A stretch of 64,000 nucleotides of DNA from Desulfotomaculum nigrificans DSM 574 (GTDB taxonomy: Bacteria; Bacillota; Desulfotomaculia; Desulfotomaculales; Desulfotomaculaceae), in NCBI RefSeq assembly GCF_000189755.2, contig NZ_KI912183.1:932257-996256 (forward strand). Direction: 5' to 3'. This document shows positions 14,172-23,964 of the stretch, piece after piece. Under the pieces are notes generated by a model. The model did no database searches. It was not told the origin of the DNA and was given only the letters and a program-made list of their open reading frames with translations. The position numbers and the translations under genes are program-made. The stretch's first letter is position 1, and the number at the start of each line of letters is the position of its first letter.

Positions 14172-14240
14172 TAACCATTATCTGGTATATACATAGATTA
14201 GTTATGGAATAATAGGTTATGTACCGCTGGAGTGATATTT

Positions 14241-14840
14241 TTGTCCTTAAACCGCAAAAAATCTCTAAAACTTAAAAGGCGCCTTTTGTTTATACTTATA
14301 TTGCTGTTATTGTGGTTTAACCATAAAGAAATTGGCCGCCATTTATACCCCTTTCCGCACCAAGAATTAGTTTACCACTATGCTCAGGCCAATAATTTAG
14401 ACCCCTTATTTGTGGCGGCGGTAATTAAAAGCGAAAGTAACTTTAATGACCGGGCCACTTCGCCCAAAGGGGCCAGGGGCTTAATGCAAATCATGCCTAC
14501 TACCGGCGACTGGATATCCCGCAAAATGGGCGCCGGCCCACTATCCCCGGAGCAGCTGTTTAACGTGGAGACCAATATCAGCCTGGGCACATGGTATTTA
14601 GCTGATCTACTCAGAGAATTTAACGGTGACATTGTGCTGGCAATTGCGGCCTATAACGCTGGTCGGGGTAACGTAAAAAGTTGGCTCAACAGCCAACACT
14701 GGACCGGTGAACACAAGACCATTGATCAAATTCCTTTTTACGAAACCAGGCAATACATCCGCCGGGTGCTATGGAATTATAAGGTCTATCATTATTTATA
14801 CGGTACCGGTGAGCCGATGCTAAAACTCCCCGTCTCTTGA
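14241..14840 (+). CDS. Lytic transglycosylase, Slt70-type
   Basis: A 199-residue membrane-anchored murein hydrolase. A basic N terminus and a single hydrophobic helix (about residues 14-25) precede the SLT domain. The catalytic glutamate is E65 in KSESNFN; GARGLMQIMP, a long N-terminal-side loop and IAAYNAGRGNV complete the family signature. TTG 14241 is 8 nt after GGAG, a better fit than GTG 14232. It closes the polA-mutM-ytaF-coaE cluster, as in related genomes, and is followed by a terminator. Confidence 0.93.
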   Translation: MSLNRKKSLKLKRRLLFILILLLLWFNHKEIGRHLYPFPHQELVYHYAQANNLDPLFVAAVIKSESNFNDRATSPKGARGLMQIMPTTGDWISRKMGAGPLSPEQLFNVETNISLGTWYLADLLREFNGDIVLAIAAYNAGRGNVKSWLNSQHWTGEHKTIDQIPFYETRQYIRRVLWNYKVYHYLYGTGEPMLKLPVS

Positions 14841-14858: not shown

Positions 14859-14941
14859 TGATAAACAATAAAACTCTTCCCAAAATTAACCCAATTGTTA
14901 ATAATATAATTTAAAAGAACCGCAGGAAAAGAGGTATGCTT

Positions 14942-16663
14942 ATGGGTTTAATTTATACCGGTGCCAAATGCCGCGACTGTTACCGCTGTGTGAGGATTTG
15001 CAAGCTTAAGGCCATTCGCATAAACTCCGGTGATAAAGGAAAATTCCACGCCCAGGTGATGGATGAGCTCTGCGTCCACTGTGGGCAATGTATCCTGGCC
15101 TGCCCCCAGAAAGCCAAAAGGCCGGTTTCGGATTTGCAACAGGTACAGCAGTTGCTGACCGAGGGTACACCCATCATTGCCATGGTGGCGGCATCCTTTG
15201 TCAGCGCCCTACCCCTAAAAAACCCCAATGTATTGCCCACCCTGTTAAGAAAACTGGGCTTTGCCGAAGTGCAGGAAACTTCTACCGGTGCCGGATTGGT
15301 AACGCAAAAATACCTGGAACTGGGCTTTGATCGGCCCATGCTGGTCAGCTACTGCCCGGTGATTGTTAATATAATTGAACGACACTACCCGGAACTGATC
15401 CCTATGCTGGCCCCGGTGGTCACCCCCATGATTGCCCACGGCCGGGTAATCAAGGCAGTTAACCCAACAGCCAGGGTGGTCTATATCAGTCCCTGTGCCG
15501 CCAAAAGGGATGAAGCCCAGTTGCTGGGTGTAAAGGATTCAGTGGACTACTTCCTGGGCTTTAACGAATTATGGCAGTTAGTTGAAGAAAAAGGCATTGA
15601 CGTGGACAGTCTGTCTCCTTCCTCCTTTGACGGTTTTAATCCCTGCCAGGATCGCATCTTCCCGGTGGAGGGCGGTATGATTTGGACAGTGGCCGACGAA
15701 CTGAAGCAAGCAGGTGAAGACTTCATCACTATGTCCGGCATGGAAAATTGCCTGGAATTCATTGACCATTTATCCAAGCAGGAAATTACCAACCCGCCAA
15801 AATTGATGGAACTGTGGGCCTGTCGGGGTGGTTGTATTAACGGTCCCCTGTCCCTGTGCCGGGACCAGAGCCTGTTTATGCGCCAGCGTAAAGTGTTGGA
15901 GTATTACGGTTCCTCCGGGTCTTGTGTTTTGGAAACAAAGGAAACCAAGCTGCCGGAGCTGGACTTAAGCCGCAGTTTTACCAACCGAAAAGTAACATTG
16001 CCGTATCCCAGTGAGCAAGAAATTAAAGAAATTCTGGCCAAGACCGGCAAGCTAACACCGGGCCAGGAATTTAACTGCGGTAACTGCGGCTATAACTCCT
16101 GCCGGGAAAAGGCGGTGGCTGTATACCAGGGCAAAGCCGAGATTGAGATGTGTATCCCCTACATGCGTAAGCGCGCTGAATCAATGTCTAACCTGGTGAT
16201 GGCTGCTATGCCCAACGCCATTATTGTGGTAAACAAGAACCTGGATATATTAGAAATCAACCCGGCGGCGGAAAAAATGTTTAACTGTTCTGCCTCCTCC
16301 ATCGTGGGCCAGAGAATTTTGGCCCTGATGCCAGCCAACAACTTTATACAGGTTATTCAAAACGGAGAAATGATTAACACCACCGGCACCTACCCGGACC
16401 TGGGGATTGTCACCAGGGAAATCATTTTCCCCGTGAAAAATACTAACCTGGTGGTGGGCATTTTTATTGACATTACTCCGGAAAAACGCCAGCGGGAGCA
16501 GTTTGACCTGGTAAAAAGCCAGACCATCCAACAGGCCCAGGAGGTTATTGAAAGACAAATGATGGTGGCCCAGGAAATTGCAGGGCTATTGGGTGAGGCC
16601 ACGGCGGAAACCAAGGTGCAACTGAGTAAACTGATTAAACTTATGCGGCAAGAGACCTTATAG
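14942..16663 (+). CDS. Sensory [FeFe]-hydrogenase homologue with PAS domain (HydS-like)
   Basis: A 573-residue soluble protein. Two [4Fe-4S] ferredoxin motifs lie at C10-C20 and C44-C54. The H-cluster domain keeps the cluster-ligating cysteines: C138 in the L1 loop, C185 in L2 (SPCAAK) and C294/C298 in L3 (ELWACRGGC). The proton-relay cysteine of the catalytic L1 signature TSCCP is replaced by tyrosine (SYCP), typical of sensory rather than turnover enzymes. A 4-Cys Fe-S domain (C379, C382, C387, C404) and a PAS domain (about 420-525) follow. The next gene encodes a SpoIIE-type phosphatase, the pairing known for group C sensory hydrogenases. Start ATG 14942 chosen by spacing; ATG 14936 is possible. 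Confidence 0.9.
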   Translation: MGLIYTGAKCRDCYRCVRICKLKAIRINSGDKGKFHAQVMDELCVHCGQCILACPQKAKRPVSDLQQVQQLLTEGTPIIAMVAASFVSALPLKNPNVLPTLLRKLGFAEVQETSTGAGLVTQKYLELGFDRPMLVSYCPVIVNIIERHYPELIPMLAPVVTPMIAHGRVIKAVNPTARVVYISPCAAKRDEAQLLGVKDSVDYFLGFNELWQLVEEKGIDVDSLSPSSFDGFNPCQDRIFPVEGGMIWTVADELKQAGEDFITMSGMENCLEFIDHLSKQEITNPPKLMELWACRGGCINGPLSLCRDQSLFMRQRKVLEYYGSSGSCVLETKETKLPELDLSRSFTNRKVTLPYPSEQEIKEILAKTGKLTPGQEFNCGNCGYNSCREKAVAVYQGKAEIEMCIPYMRKRAESMSNLVMAAMPNAIIVVNKNLDILEINPAAEKMFNCSASSIVGQRILALMPANNFIQVIQNGEMINTTGTYPDLGIVTREIIFPVKNTNLVVGIFIDITPEKRQREQFDLVKSQTIQQAQEVIERQMMVAQEIAGLLGEATAETKVQLSKLIKLMRQETL

Positions 16664-16678
16664 AAAGGAGCCGCGAAA

Positions 16679-17830
16679 ATGAAGATATGTTTGGATATTG
16701 GGGTGGCCCAATTAAAAAAATACGGGGAAGAATTATGCGGTGACAGTGTGGAAATCGTGCGCACCGACGACGCCCACCTGGTGGTGGTGTCTGACGGGTT
16801 GGGTAGCGGGGTGAAGGCCAATATTCTTTCCCGCCTGACTACCAAGACCGCAGCCACCATGCTGCGGATGGGCGGCCACATAGATGAAGTAATAGACACG
16901 GTGGCCCGCACCCTGCCCATTGACAAGACCATCAACGAAGCCTACAGTACCTTTTCCATCCTGCAGATTCAAAATAACGGTAAACTTTACCTGGTGGAGT
17001 ATGATAACCCCCGGGTGTTTATCGGTAACCGGCAAACCATGTTTACCCCCCGTCGGGAGGAGCGGGTGATTGCCGGCAAGAAGATAGGTGAATATGAATT
17101 TGAAGTGGATGATCAGGACTGGCTGGTAATAACTTCCGACGGCGTGTTAAACGCCGGCCTCAATGGCCATATGAATGTAGCCTGGGGCTGGGACAGGATT
17201 GGCAGCTTTATCGAAGATTCTTACTCGGAAGATAAGAGTGCTTCGGAATGGGCCGATGAGATTGCCGGGTTATGTAACACCTTATACGGTGAAAAGCCCG
17301 GTGATGATGTTACGGTGGTGGCGGTCAAGGTGCGCCGTCCGGTCCATGTCACCATGCTCATTGGCCCGCCCCAGCGTAAAGAGGACGATAAACTGGTGGT
17401 GCGCAAATTAATGGAAGGCCCTGGAGCTAAAGTTGTATGCGGCGGCACCACCGGGGATATTGTGGCCCGGGTGTTAGGGCGCAAGGTGTTTGTAGATGTG
17501 GAATCAGTTTCCGATGAAGTCCCTCCGGTGGGGATGTTGCCGGGCATTGACCTGGTCACCGAGGGTGCCGTTACGCTGGTACGTACCCTGGAACATATTA
17601 AGGCCCGCACCAGGTTAAGGGAGCTGAGGTCCCGCAAGGACGGAGCCAGCCGGTTGGCCGTCCTGCTGAGAAGGTGCGACAGCCTGCACATTATGGTGGG
17701 TACTGCCGCCAACAACGCCCTGCAGTGTGATGATGTGCCGGCCATTTACGCCTACAAACACCATGTCATCCGGGACTTAATTAACACCCTGCGGAACATG
17801 GGTAAACAGGTTACAGAGGAATATTTCTAA
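16679..17830 (+). CDS. SpoIIE-family serine phosphatase, partner of the sensory hydrogenase
   Basis: A 383-residue PP2C/SpoIIE phosphatase. Residues about 1-220 form the phosphatase domain with metal-binding aspartates in VVSDGLGSG, TSDGVLNAG and PGDDVTVV. The C-terminal 160 residues are a separate region found in hydrogenase-linked homologues (KVVCGGTTGDIVARVLG), with no function assigned here. It follows the sensory hydrogenase by 15 nt with a strong AAAGGAG, so the two are translated from one mRNA. Likely role: H2- or redox-dependent dephosphorylation of an unidentified partner. Confidence 0.9.
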   Translation: MKICLDIGVAQLKKYGEELCGDSVEIVRTDDAHLVVVSDGLGSGVKANILSRLTTKTAATMLRMGGHIDEVIDTVARTLPIDKTINEAYSTFSILQIQNNGKLYLVEYDNPRVFIGNRQTMFTPRREERVIAGKKIGEYEFEVDDQDWLVITSDGVLNAGLNGHMNVAWGWDRIGSFIEDSYSEDKSASEWADEIAGLCNTLYGEKPGDDVTVVAVKVRRPVHVTMLIGPPQRKEDDKLVVRKLMEGPGAKVVCGGTTGDIVARVLGRKVFVDVESVSDEVPPVGMLPGIDLVTEGAVTLVRTLEHIKARTRLRELRSRKDGASRLAVLLRRCDSLHIMVGTAANNALQCDDVPAIYAYKHHVIRDLINTLRNMGKQVTEEYF

Positions 17831-19544: not shown

Positions 19545-22226
19545 TTAACTATACTTGGTTATCTTAACGGCACAGACCTTTAGCTCCGGCTCATTGGCCA
19601 CCGGGTCGGTGGCGGTGGTGGTGAGTACGTTGGCATTCCCCTCCGCATAGTGGAAGGTCATGAAGGTGGTCCCCCTTAAAATCTTGTCCGTTACCCTGGC
19701 GGTGGTGGTGATGGTACCCCGGCGGGAGCTTACCTGTACTGTGTCACCGTCTTTAATCCCCAGTTGTGCCGCATCCTGGGAATTAATTTCAATAAAGCTG
19801 GCAGGCGCCATGTGATTGAGAGCCGCCACTCTACCGGTCATGGTTCTGGTGTGATAATGGTACAATACCCGGCCGGTAGTCAGGATGAAGGGATAATCCT
19901 TATCAACCTGCTCCGCCGAAGGAACATGCTCACAAGCCACGAATTTGCCTTTACCCCGCATGAAGCTGCCCACATGAAGGATGGGTGTGCCGGGATGATC
20001 TTTATCCGGCACCGGCCAAACCAGACCGGAAATATTTTCTAACCGATCGTAGCTAACTCCGGCAAATTGCGGTGTTACCGAAGCAATCTCATCCATGATT
20101 TCAGACGGGTGATGATAGATTTTGGGGTAGCCCATCTTGTTCATAATTTCGGTGAGAATCAGCCAGTCGGGCTTGGCTTGGCCCGGGGCTTTCACCGCTT
20201 TTCTGACCCGCTGGATTCTCCGGTCGGTACTGGTGAAGGTGCCGTCTTTCTCGGCAAAGGAGGTGGCGGGCAGCACCACATGAGCCAGTTGGGCTGTTTC
20301 AGTCAGGAAGATATCCTGTACCACCAGGAAATCCAGGGATTTCAAGGCATGCTCAATGTGGTTGGTGTCCGGGTCAGACACCATGGGGTTTTCTCCTAAG
20401 ACATACAGGGCTTTTAGCTCACCTTGATGGGCTGCTTCCATCATTTGTGACACTGTTAGGCCGGGATGTCTGGGCAGAGTAACTCCCCAGGCCCGTTCAA
20501 ATTTTTCAATTACCCCGGCCTGAACAATTTTTTGATAACCGGGCAGATCCCCCGGCAAAGCCCCCATATCGCAGGAACCCTGCACGTTGTTTTGACCCCT
20601 TAAAGGGTTTACCCCCGCCTTTGGCTTACCCACTTGGCCGCACAGCATAGCCAAATTAGCAATGGACAGAACATTGCTGGTGCCGGAAATATGCTGGGTA
20701 ATGCCCATGGCATAAAGTATGGAAGCATTGTCAGCCCGGCCATAGGTGCGAGCCGCCTCAATAATTAACTGTTCCGGTACGCCGCAGATGTCCGCCACTA
20801 CCCCGGGGCTATACCTGGCCACCGTGGCCTTTAGCTCTTCGTAACCTTCACAGCGGGATTGGATAAACTCTTCATCCAACAACCCTTCATTAATAATCAC
20901 ATGCATCATCCCGTTAAGGAGAGCAGTGTTGGTGCCGGGTTTTAGTTGCAAATAAATATCCGCTTTGGCCGCCAGCGGGATCTGCCGGGGATCGGCCACA
21001 ATCAGCTTGGCCCCTTTATTGATGGCCTGCTGCACCTGGTAGGAAATTACCGGGTGATTCTCGGTAGTATTGGAGCCAATGATAAAGATAACATCGGTAT
21101 CCCGAATATCATGAATAGGGTTGGTCATGGAACCACTACCAAAGGAGGTTGCAAGACCTGCAACCGTAGTGGCGTGTCAGAGGCGGGCGCAGTGGTCGAT
21201 GTTGTTGGTACCGATCACTGCCCGCATAAACTTCTGCATTAGGTAATTTTCTTCATTGGTGCATCTGGCCGAAGACAGCCCACCAATAGCATCCGGGCCA
21301 TATACCTCTTTAACGTCGGTTAACTTCTCGGCGATCAGGTTGTATGCCTCTTCCCAGCTGGCTTCCACCAGTTGCCCGTTTTTCCTGATTAAAGGTGTCT
21401 TTAAGCGATCCGGGTGATGGATGAAATTAAAACCAAACTTGCCCTTCACACAGAGCTTGCCCTCGTTAGACATGCCGTTAGCCGGCTGCACTTCCACCAC
21501 CTGACCGTCCTTCACCCGCAAAATCATTTGACAGCCGGTGCCACAATAGGGACAGGTGGTCAAAGTCTCGGTTACTTCCCACTTGCGGTACTTGGTCTTG
21601 GATTTGGGGTTTAAGGCTCCCACCGGACAAACTGAACTGCAGTTACCGCAGAATAGACAGGACGTACCGTGCAAAGTATTTTCCGAGGTAGGGGTAATCC
21701 GTTTAACGCCGTTGATTTCTACCATTTGAATGGCGCCGGCCCCCACTATTTCGTTACACACTTGCACACATTTGCCGCACAAAATGCACTTGGACTGATC
21801 CCGTTCAAAAAACGGGTTGCTGTCATCAATGGGATAGTCATAGGGCTGAGCGGCGATGGTGCTCTTCTCCAGGCCGTAAAGCTGGCAGTAGTCCTGCAAC
21901 AGGCAGTCGCCGCTCTTGGCACAGGTCATACACTTCAGCGGGTGCCTGGATAAAATGACGTTAAGGGCTTCCTTTCTGGCCGTCACTGCCAACTCGCTTT
22001 CCGTTAAGATTTCCATACCGGCCTCTACCTGGGTGGTGCAGGCCAGCACCGGTTCCGTCCGGCCCAGCACTTCCACTGCACATACTCGGCAGTTACCCAG
22101 TGGTTTTAGGCCCGGTTCGTGGCAAAGGGAAGGAATGTTAATATGCAAACTCCGGGCCGCTTCAATAATGGAGGTGCCTTCCTTAACCAGCACAGGCTTG
22201 CCGTTTATTTTCACTGCAATCATCAT
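19545..22226 (-). CDS. fdhA: Selenocysteine formate dehydrogenase, alpha subunit
   Basis: An 893-residue molybdo/tungsto-bis-MGD enzyme read through an in-frame TGA. The N terminus is a [2Fe-2S] domain, then a His-Cys3 cluster motif, two [4Fe-4S] motifs (CILCGKCVQVC, CLFCGNCSSVC) and the catalytic [4Fe-4S] motif (CPYCGTGC). The catalytic residue is codon 350, TGA at 21177-21179, in the context DHCARL-Sec-HATTVAGL, equivalent to the Sec of FdhF. A SECIS hairpin follows directly. Simple gene callers would split it into two. The start overlaps the upstream hydrogenase gene by 44 nt, so the products are probably coupled and form a soluble formate/H2 complex. ATG 22226 or 22223 follows AAAGGGGG. 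Confidence 0.95.
21140..21179 (-). promoter_or_regulatory. Bacterial SECIS element of fdhA
   Basis: Downstream of the UGA on the minus strand, GGTTGC (21165-21160) pairs with GCAACC (21152-21147) around a 7-nt AGGTCTT loop. The apical loop sequence GGTTGCAGGTCT matches the SECIS of E. coli fdhF, which recruits SelB. The distance from the UGA to the stem is right for a bacterial SECIS. Confidence 0.93.
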
Positions 22227-23964
22227 TTGTGCCCCCTTTACTGATGTTGCTGCGGTCAGTGTAGTGTGTATGCAGTAATTCATGGGCCAGGTGCCCGTTG
22301 GGTTCTGTCAAGAATTGTTCGTACACTGCCTTAATGGCCGGGTTTTCATGGGACTTGCGCACAGCTTTGCCTTCATCAATGGCATAAAGGCCCCTGGCCC
22401 GGTTTTGTATTTCCGTTGACATCACCGGTAGCGGTTGACCGCCGCCGGCAATACACCCCCCGGGGCAACCCATCACTTCAATAAAATGGTACGGCGAGCT
22501 GCCGTCCTTAATCTGCTCCATGATCCTGGCCGCATTTCGGGCGCCGCTCACCACCGCCAGCCGCAGGGTCTGCCCGTTTAAGGTGATTTCCGCCTCTTTC
22601 ACCCCAGCAAGACCACGTACCGGCATAAACTCGATTTTTTCCCGCTGGGTACCGGTAATTACCTCGGAGATGGTGCGCACGGCAGCTTCCATCACCCCCC
22701 CGGTAACACCAAAGATAGTGCCCGCCCCGGTGGCAAAACCCAGGTCATAATCAAAATCGCCATCAGCTAACTGGTTAAAGTTAATTTTATTCAATCTTAT
22801 CAGCTTGGCCAGTTCCCGGGTGGTCAACACGATATCCACTTCCCGTATGCCATCCCGGGCCATTTCCGGTCGGCTGGCTTCAAACTTCTTGGTTACACAG
22901 GGCATCACGGACACCACGCAAATCTTGCCCGGGTTCAGGTTCTCCTTTTGGGCGTAAAAGGTCTTGGCGATGGCCCCAAACATTTGCTGGGGCGACTTGC
23001 AAGAGGAAAGGTGCGGCAGCAGCTGTGGGTAATTTTGCTCGGCAAACTTAACCCAGCTAGGGCAGCAGGAGGTAATCATCGGCAGTTGGCCGCTGTTATT
23101 CAACCGACCTAAAAATTCTGTCCCTTCCTCCATAATAGTCAAATCCGCGCTGAAATCAGTATTGAATACTTTATCTACTCCCAGCAGGCGTAAGGCAGTT
23201 ACCAATTTGCCGGATACATCGGTGCCGGCAGGCAGCTTAAATTCTTCACCCAGGGCCACTTTAACCGCCGGGGCGATTTGCACCAATACCGTCATATCCG
23301 GGTCCGCCACGGCTTTGGTAAACTGGTAAATGGACAAATTCTCAGTAATGGCACCTACCGGACAAACATTGATGCACTGACCACAATAAATGCAGCTGGT
23401 TTCGGCAATGGGCAAACCACTTACAGTATCAATAATTTCTTCCGCACCGTGCCGGACATATCCTAAGGCGCCAATGCCCTGCACCTGATCACAAACCGCC
23501 ACACACCGGCCACATTTAATACATTTGTTCATATCCCGCAGTAGCGATGGGCTGGACAGGTCCTTGTCCACCATTTGGGCCTGGCTGCGGAAAGTAACGG
23601 TATCCATATCAATACCTAACTGGTACACCAGATCCTGCAGTTGACAATCACCCTGACTCCGGAAACAGGTCAAACAGTCATTGGGGTGGCTGCTTAAAAT
23701 CTCCCTGAGCCGCCGCTCCCGCAGGGCCTTAACTCTGGCGGAATCAGTAACAATCTCCATGCCTTCAGTAATTTCTGTCTCACAGGCCAGCACCGGGTTA
23801 GCTGACCCGGCCACTTCCACCACACATATACCACAGTTACCCGCCACGCCAAGCTTAGCGTGATAGCACAAAGTAGGAATATGAATGTCGCATATCCTGG
23901 CTGCTTCCAGTATGGTCATGGGCCTGTCTGTAGTTATGGGTTGGCCATTGATTATCACCTTCAC
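22183..23964 (-). CDS. [FeFe] hydrogenase catalytic subunit (HndD/HydA-like)
   Basis: A 593-residue group A [FeFe] hydrogenase. Domains in order: [2Fe-2S] (C33, C44, C47, C61), His-Cys3 [4Fe-4S] (H93, C97, C100, C107), two [4Fe-4S] motifs (about 148-201), and the H-cluster domain with all three complete signatures, TSCCPSW (C300, C301), MPCVTK (C356) and EVMGCPGGC (C500, C504). It should reversibly oxidise H2. GTG 23964 follows AAAGGAAG. No HydB/HydC-type flavin subunits are adjacent; instead the gene overlaps the formate dehydrogenase gene. The last residues (after about 580) are poorly conserved. Confidence 0.95.
   Translation of the reverse strand: MKVIINGQPITTDRPMTILEAARICDIHIPTLCYHAKLGVAGNCGICVVEVAGSANPVLACETEITEGMEIVTDSARVKALRERRLREILSSHPNDCLTCFRSQGDCQLQDLVYQLGIDMDTVTFRSQAQMVDKDLSSPSLLRDMNKCIKCGRCVAVCDQVQGIGALGYVRHGAEEIIDTVSGLPIAETSCIYCGQCINVCPVGAITENLSIYQFTKAVADPDMTVLVQIAPAVKVALGEEFKLPAGTDVSGKLVTALRLLGVDKVFNTDFSADLTIMEEGTEFLGRLNNSGQLPMITSCCPSWVKFAEQNYPQLLPHLSSCKSPQQMFGAIAKTFYAQKENLNPGKICVVSVMPCVTKKFEASRPEMARDGIREVDIVLTTRELAKLIRLNKINFNQLADGDFDYDLGFATGAGTIFGVTGGVMEAAVRTISEVITGTQREKIEFMPVRGLAGVKEAEITLNGQTLRLAVVSGARNAARIMEQIKDGSSPYHFIEVMGCPGGCIAGGGQPLPVMSTEIQNRARGLYAIDEGKAVRKSHENPAIKAVYEQFLTEPNGHLAHELLHTHYTDRSNISKGGTNDDCSENKRQACAG

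Follow-up and report, generated by a model that had tools for sequence, protein, structure and literature searches.

In the window, a stretch of 64,000 nucleotides from Desulfotomaculum nigrificans DSM 574, a gene for a protein resembling an [FeFe] hydrogenase (HydS) directly precedes a gene for a SpoIIE-type phosphatase. This raises the questions of what HydS might sense, how it might act on the phosphatase, and which process the phosphatase might serve.

Layout and domains of the two proteins

The features of the locus are as follows.

14936..16663, + strand: HydS, a group-C-like sensory [FeFe] hydrogenase homologue (hfsB-type), 575 aa (ORF, Pfam, AlphaFold2, fold match)
14966..15115, + strand: 2x[4Fe-4S] ferredoxin-like (dicluster) domain, residues 11-60 (Pfam Fer4_7; eight Cys conserved)
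15173..15847, + strand: H-cluster domain, residues 80-304, ligands C140, C187, C296 and C300 (Pfam Fe_hyd_lg_C, E 6.7e-45)
15350..15352, + strand: Tyr139 codon at the CpI Cys299 position, Desulforamulus clade only (alignment to CpI)
16070..16159, + strand: extra FeS domain PF04060 (M2f), residues 379-408 (Pfam; Cys 381, 384, 389 and 406 in all scored sequences)
16196..16474, + strand: PAS domain, residues 421-513 (Pfam best stretch 421-468; model)
16475..16657, + strand: C-terminal helices, residues 514-552 and 555-574 (DSSP on AlphaFold2 model; pLDDT 57-68 in the last 30 residues)
16556..16615, + strand: near-invariant tail motif QMMVAQEIAGLLGEATAETK, residues 541-560, a proposed phosphatase-binding element (conservation)
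16664..16670, + strand: AAAGGAG ribosome-binding site, inside the 15-nt gap between the two genes (sequence)
16679..17830, + strand: SpoIIE/PPM-type Ser/Thr phosphatase (hfsC-type), 383 aa (ORF, Pfam, AlphaFold2, fold match)
16679..17335, + strand: PPM catalytic domain, residues 1-219, with D22, D39, D154, D209 and D210 conserved (Pfam SpoIIE 31-219, E 8.1e-14; structure)
16793..16852, + strand: DGLGSGVKANIL motif and first helix, residues about 38-58, the most conserved phosphatase stretch (conservation)
17336..17827, + strand: undescribed alpha/beta C-terminal domain (C-domain), residues 220-383, nearly always found with HydS and also stand-alone behind HydABC

The ORFs at 14936-16663 and 16679-17830 agree with the initial annotation, which had placed a SpoIIE phosphatase 15 nt from the hydrogenase-like gene. 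The ORF used here begins at 14936; the HydS start given there, 14942, is the in-frame ATG that follows. The closest named relatives are from Desulforamulus species, at about 75-81% identity. The pair is neighboured by an slt-like ORF upstream (14232-14840) and by a convergent FAD-dependent gene, and a promoter and terminator scan gave a score no better than that of shuffles.

The AlphaFold2 model of HydS (mean pLDDT 82) has its closest solved folds among [FeFe] hydrogenases (CbA5H, Z 35.6, rmsd 2.8, 330 residues). As had been read from the sequence beforehand, the H-cluster ligand cysteines are kept (all four, in 80/80 scored sequences), and the extra Fe-S domain (PF04060, 379-408) and the PAS domain (421-468 by Pfam) lie near the C-terminus. 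The replacement of the proton-relay cysteine by tyrosine, also claimed initially, is present in the window HydS as Tyr139, but does not stand as a sensory signature. With HydS residues placed on CpI numbering through alignments, and counts made over 80 to 81 scored sequences, the Cys299 position holds Cys in 73/80 and Ser in two, with Tyr only in the five scored sequences of the Desulforamulus clade, ruling it out as a mark of the family or of sensory function. We identified other changes throughout the family: the CpI Ser319 position is Ala in 78/81 HydS, the Met353 position is Gly in 78, and the Met497 position retains Met in only two, with Asn in 71 and Trp in the five scored Desulforamulus-clade sequences (Trp294 in the window HydS). 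It is these substitutions, and not Tyr139, that indicate a family-wide break in the usual proton path. The CpI Glu279 position is Lys in the window HydS, and Lys358 is invariant among the scored HydS. We additionally identified a second HydS-like protein in the window genome (L107:7603-9318, 571 aa), with an FeS domain and a long C-terminal region that contains no PAS or tail match, and with no phosphatase neighbour.

The phosphatase has the PPM fold and the metal-ligand aspartates of SpoIIE and RsbU phosphatases, and its AlphaFold2 model (mean pLDDT 88) matched the solved folds 3pu9 (Z 26.2, rmsd 2.7, 216 residues) and SpoIIE 5ucg (Z 25.1, rmsd 2.5, 214 residues). An N-terminal sensor or regulatory domain or linker is absent from the chain, the PPM strands starting at model residue 4. 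The uncharacterised C-terminal region of about 160 residues noted initially proved to be a 164-aa domain, with no match of note in Pfam or NCBIfam, none in PHROGs, and chance-level matches only in a PDB profile search (best E 0.37). In structure searches with the whole phosphatase model the matches were taken up by the PPM domain, so that the absence of a match to the C-domain is a result of sequence searches. DSSP on the model shows an alpha/beta domain, in which GP, GG and DLxTEG residues are invariant.

Pairing, conserved elements and known systems

In all 81 loci considered (the 80 closest from a scan of GTDB genomes, and the window), the gene directly after HydS, on the same strand, encodes a phosphatase homologue, with most gaps below 50 nt. 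Across a phylum-wide sample of 398 genomes, in which the HydS PAS plus tail was counted if full-length and matched with E below 1e-40, the phosphatase C-domain was identified in 122 genomes and the HydS PAS and tail in 119, all 119 of which also contain the C-domain. Directly before a C-domain phosphatase gene lie 137 of the 142 HydS tails in these genomes; the other five are one tandem duplicate HydS (L181) and four tails in draft assemblies. C-domain genes without HydS comprise four stand-alone copies, one in each of the four sampled genomes of the genus, four matches in draft assemblies, some of them partial (G249, G388, G393 and G030), and the phosphatase of G005 (L147:6587-7726), the only intact phosphatase relative found without HydS. 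The HydS-phosphatase pair is obligate. In the G005 phosphatase, ten residues near the first PPM helix are deleted in frame and CGD reads SRD; the deletion is a single case and could be decay. The L181 locus has the tandem order HydS-Trx-HydS-phosphatase, i.e. two sensors per phosphatase.

Conservation within the pair is concentrated in two places. The C-terminal helix of HydS, QMMVAQEIAGLLGETTAETK, is near-invariant, and residues Q541-K560 form the protein's most conserved 20-mer (mean majority-residue frequency 0.99), outranking the surroundings of the H-cluster. Eight longer homologues among the matches listed (856-950 aa) are matched in the FeS/PAS part and lack a match to the tail, so that, of these matches, those with the tail are of the phosphatase-linked form. 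In the phosphatase, the most conserved 20-mer (residues 38-57, mean majority frequency 0.97) covers the DGLGSG metal motif and the first helix. The first two PPM helices are the switch element of SpoIIE and RsbU (PMC11418112, PMC12143880), and are under the control of a helical linker in RsbU and, by prediction, in RsbP (PMC12143880). Since the window phosphatase begins at its PPM domain, with neither a regulatory domain nor a linker of its own, the sequences make it plausible that the HydS tail is a detached regulatory linker, which HydS may supply in trans, in a role like that of the fused PAS linker of RsbP. RsbP and RsbU share with the window pair the PPM fold and a sensor working via a helical linker on switch helices (PMC12143880), whereas in the window pair sensor and phosphatase are separate proteins, with no general STAS substrate and with an extra C-domain.

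Pairs of a putative H2 sensor and a phosphatase are already known in anaerobic bacteria, and the window pair is a further example. HydDB defined the [FeFe] group C3 in 2016 as "phosphatase-linked (putative)", proposing H2 sensing via the phosphatase and giving its role as undetermined (PMC5037454). As in C3, a sensory [FeFe] hydrogenase is encoded in the window with a Ser/Thr phosphatase, the ligand cysteines are present, and a PAS domain follows the H-domain together with the extra FeS domain (M2f); the assignment to a sensor-phosphatase module of the C3 kind, made by architecture and pairing, is well supported. The near-invariant tail and the phosphatase C-domain are not mentioned in the C3 description (PMC5037454), and we did not find in the literature consulted the tail, the obligate or stand-alone C-domain, or the STAS test reported below, nor, for C3 members, biochemical proof of H2 sensing or of phosphatase control.

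Genetic evidence comes from Thermoanaerobacterium, in which loss of hfsA or hfsB increases ethanol and the adhE transcript, an effect not seen when hfsC or hfsD is lost (PMC5707799). HfsC has been described as homologous to serine phosphatases, and in T. thermosaccharolyticum with a full hfs deletion, over-expression of hfsD gives the ethanol phenotype without hfsC (PMC11837493), placing the hfsC phosphatase upstream of hfsD or in parallel to it. By description and gene order, hfsB-hfsC is like the window pair in that a PAS-hydrogenase gene precedes one for a serine phosphatase homologue. Three loci (L150, L162 and L172) have the order Trx-HydS-phosphatase-[FeFe] hydrogenase, which resembles hfsA-B-C-D, and hfsA would correspond to the Trx-like gene seen beside HydS. 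At the window locus the pair stands alone, with no hfsA-like gene before it and no [FeFe] hydrogenase after it.

In R. albus, Greening and colleagues (2019) described a group C sensor with a phosphatase subunit, and an expression response that was attributed to H2 level (PMC6776011). This system shares the H-cluster and PAS sensor and the putative Ser/Thr phosphatase, but its cluster holds a ferredoxin hydrogenase and an alcohol dehydrogenase, and organism and context differ from the window. TmHydS of Thermotoga maritima is likewise a PAS-bearing sensory hydrogenase with altered Cys299, Met497 and proton-path residues, whose H2 turnover is low but not nil (PMC10055695). It differs in that the Cys299 and Met497 positions hold Ala and Ser, where the window HydS has Tyr139 and Trp294.

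We consider it probable that the pair senses H2 or redox state as a module of the phosphatase-linked type (HydDB [FeFe] C3; hfsB-hfsC-like), in which the HydS tail helix controls the phosphatase. HydS would bind H2, presumably the signal, or equilibrate with an electron pool, at an H-cluster with an interrupted proton path; the FeS and PAS domains towards the C-terminus would relay the change of state of HydS to the C-terminal helix, which would contact and control the PPM phosphatase encoded by the adjacent gene. The output would be adjusted H2 handling and electron disposal (HydABC, ferredoxin hydrogenase, adhE, rex). The prediction in the initial annotation of a pathway by which H2 or redox state would lead to dephosphorylation of proteins fits the architecture, the obligate pairing, and the hfsA-D and R. 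albus work, but it is not new (HydDB C3, PMC5037454).

Genomic neighbourhood and the nature of the signal

Among the 33 phylum-wide pairs flanked on each side by 4 kb or more, catalytic [FeFe] hydrogenase genes were identified near 26, Rex near 12 and AdhE near five, with at least one of these near 30; a rough density-based expectation for the window genome, which is not a random-genome control, is ~5% within a 16-kb stretch (10 [FeFe] matches in 3.05 Mb). A gene for a small Trx-like [2Fe-2S] protein (PF01257) lies near 25 of the 33. Closer loci with such flanks (n=58) include 22 without any of these neighbours, three of them from the Desulforamulus clade.

In sister families of the same order, HydC-HydB-HydA is followed by HydS-phosphatase in five loci (L156, L158, L159, L164 and L165), and in a sixth (L157) with the Trx-like gene between. 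In the window organism the pair lies away from HydABC, and a stand-alone C-domain gene is found there instead, encoding 153 aa directly behind HydC-HydB-HydA (G000:C1:742874-743335; L109 7875-8336). Three further genomes of the genus have a stand-alone C-domain behind HydA, with a gap of 54-67 nt. In the tree, the window phosphatase clusters with the fused genes of the same order (99/94), and the stand-alone C-domains form a separate long branch, which rules out that they split recently from the window gene. Taking the HydABC-pair arrangement and the tree grouping together, the window pair is best read as the inherited HydABC partner, relocated in Desulforamulus. After the stand-alone C-domain gene (L109:7875-8336) we noted a second HydC-HydB-HydA set.

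The initial annotation had suggested that the pair may control a hydrogenase-formate operon 5 kb away. This gained no support, as the operon is missing from the downstream flank of three Desulforamulus relatives with long flanks (L009, L010 and L012). We rejected it as a linked target, there being no conserved linkage and the sister families placing the pair beside HydC-HydB-HydA. The formate dehydrogenase of the window (19545-22283, - strand) is read as two ORFs, since a TGA in frame interrupts it at ...DHCARL*H..., where selenocysteine usually stands; given this position and a SelB match in the window genome, the two ORFs are probably one selenoprotein.

The frequent Trx-like and Rex neighbours, and the two ferredoxin-type clusters of HydS, would also suit a sensor that reads ferredoxin or general redox state and not H2, receiving electrons via the Trx-like [2Fe-2S] protein and signalling through the phosphatase in the same manner. 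We regard this as possible but rather unlikely, since neither the H-cluster ligands nor Lys358 vary, the R. albus study ascribed its response to the level of H2 (PMC6776011), and immediately ahead of the window pair stands the slt-like ORF, not a Trx-like gene.

The obligate adjacency and co-occurrence, the tail found only in the phosphatase-linked form among the matches listed, the PAS domain of HydS, and the fact that deletions of hfsAB and of hfsCD have opposite phenotypes (PMC5707799) all argue against a second alternative, that HydS works as a slow hydrogenase and the phosphatase acts on its own, the two being only co-regulated. The intact H-cluster ligands, the proton-relay Cys kept in most scored sequences, and the low but real activity of TmHydS (PMC10055695) would be consistent with such a hydrogenase, which we nonetheless judge improbable.

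Candidate targets of the phosphatase

The initial annotation had proposed looking for an anti-sigma/anti-anti-sigma pair with matching phyletic pattern, and such a pair fails as a general partner. A STAS match is missing from eight of 81 other genomes with the pair, and five of the eight are at least 90% complete, indicating that a STAS anti-anti-sigma factor is not the general target. In many pair-bearing genomes there is just one STAS gene, and several of these genes adjoin one for a SpoIIAB-like kinase. In the window genome, one STAS gene adjoins a SpoIIAB-like kinase gene, one is clustered with its own PPM phosphatase, and one lies in a 586-aa ORF; no orphan STAS gene was found there.

In L017, L024, L059 and similar loci, divergent genes for PHP, DRTGG, group-D-like HydS and RsbW-like ATPase proteins stand opposite HydABC, near the pair, constituting a second, unexplained sensor set. 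We rejected the RsbW-like/DRTGG/group-D-like HydS cluster as a general partner, as only about 20 loci contain it. No clear orthologue of the RsbW-like gene was identified in the window genome, where the best match to the RsbW-like protein is SpoIIAB-like, at 34% identity.

Classical partner switching, in which the phosphatase would dephosphorylate a STAS anti-anti-sigma factor and so free a sigma factor, can draw on a PPM fold closest to SpoIIE/RsbU types and on the RsbW-like gene by HydABC in 20 Lachnospiraceae loci, but the STAS distribution set out above and the lack of a clear RsbW-like orthologue make it very unlikely, and, provided that the genomes without STAS are truly complete, it is already excluded as a general mechanism.

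Returning to control of the phosphatase by the HydS tail, the phosphatase C-domain probably docks the target, or a ligand of the hydrogenase system. More tentatively, C3 may be a split-linker class, in which the PAS-PPM helix is carried in trans on a hydrogenase-derived sensor, the C-domain serves as a docking or ligand domain of the hydrogenase system that is also provided alone from the HydABC operon, and the target is not a STAS protein.

The HydS tail, the first PPM helix and the C-domain offer three small mutable targets for studying transfer of the H2 signal in group C, and the published hfs strains, with their ethanol and adhE phenotype, are a ready system for the pair. The STAS result argues against the first target that most people would try. 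The pair is present in about 30% of the sampled phylum genomes, including Lachnospiraceae, and the mechanism is therefore relevant to how anaerobes balance H2, ethanol and acetate.
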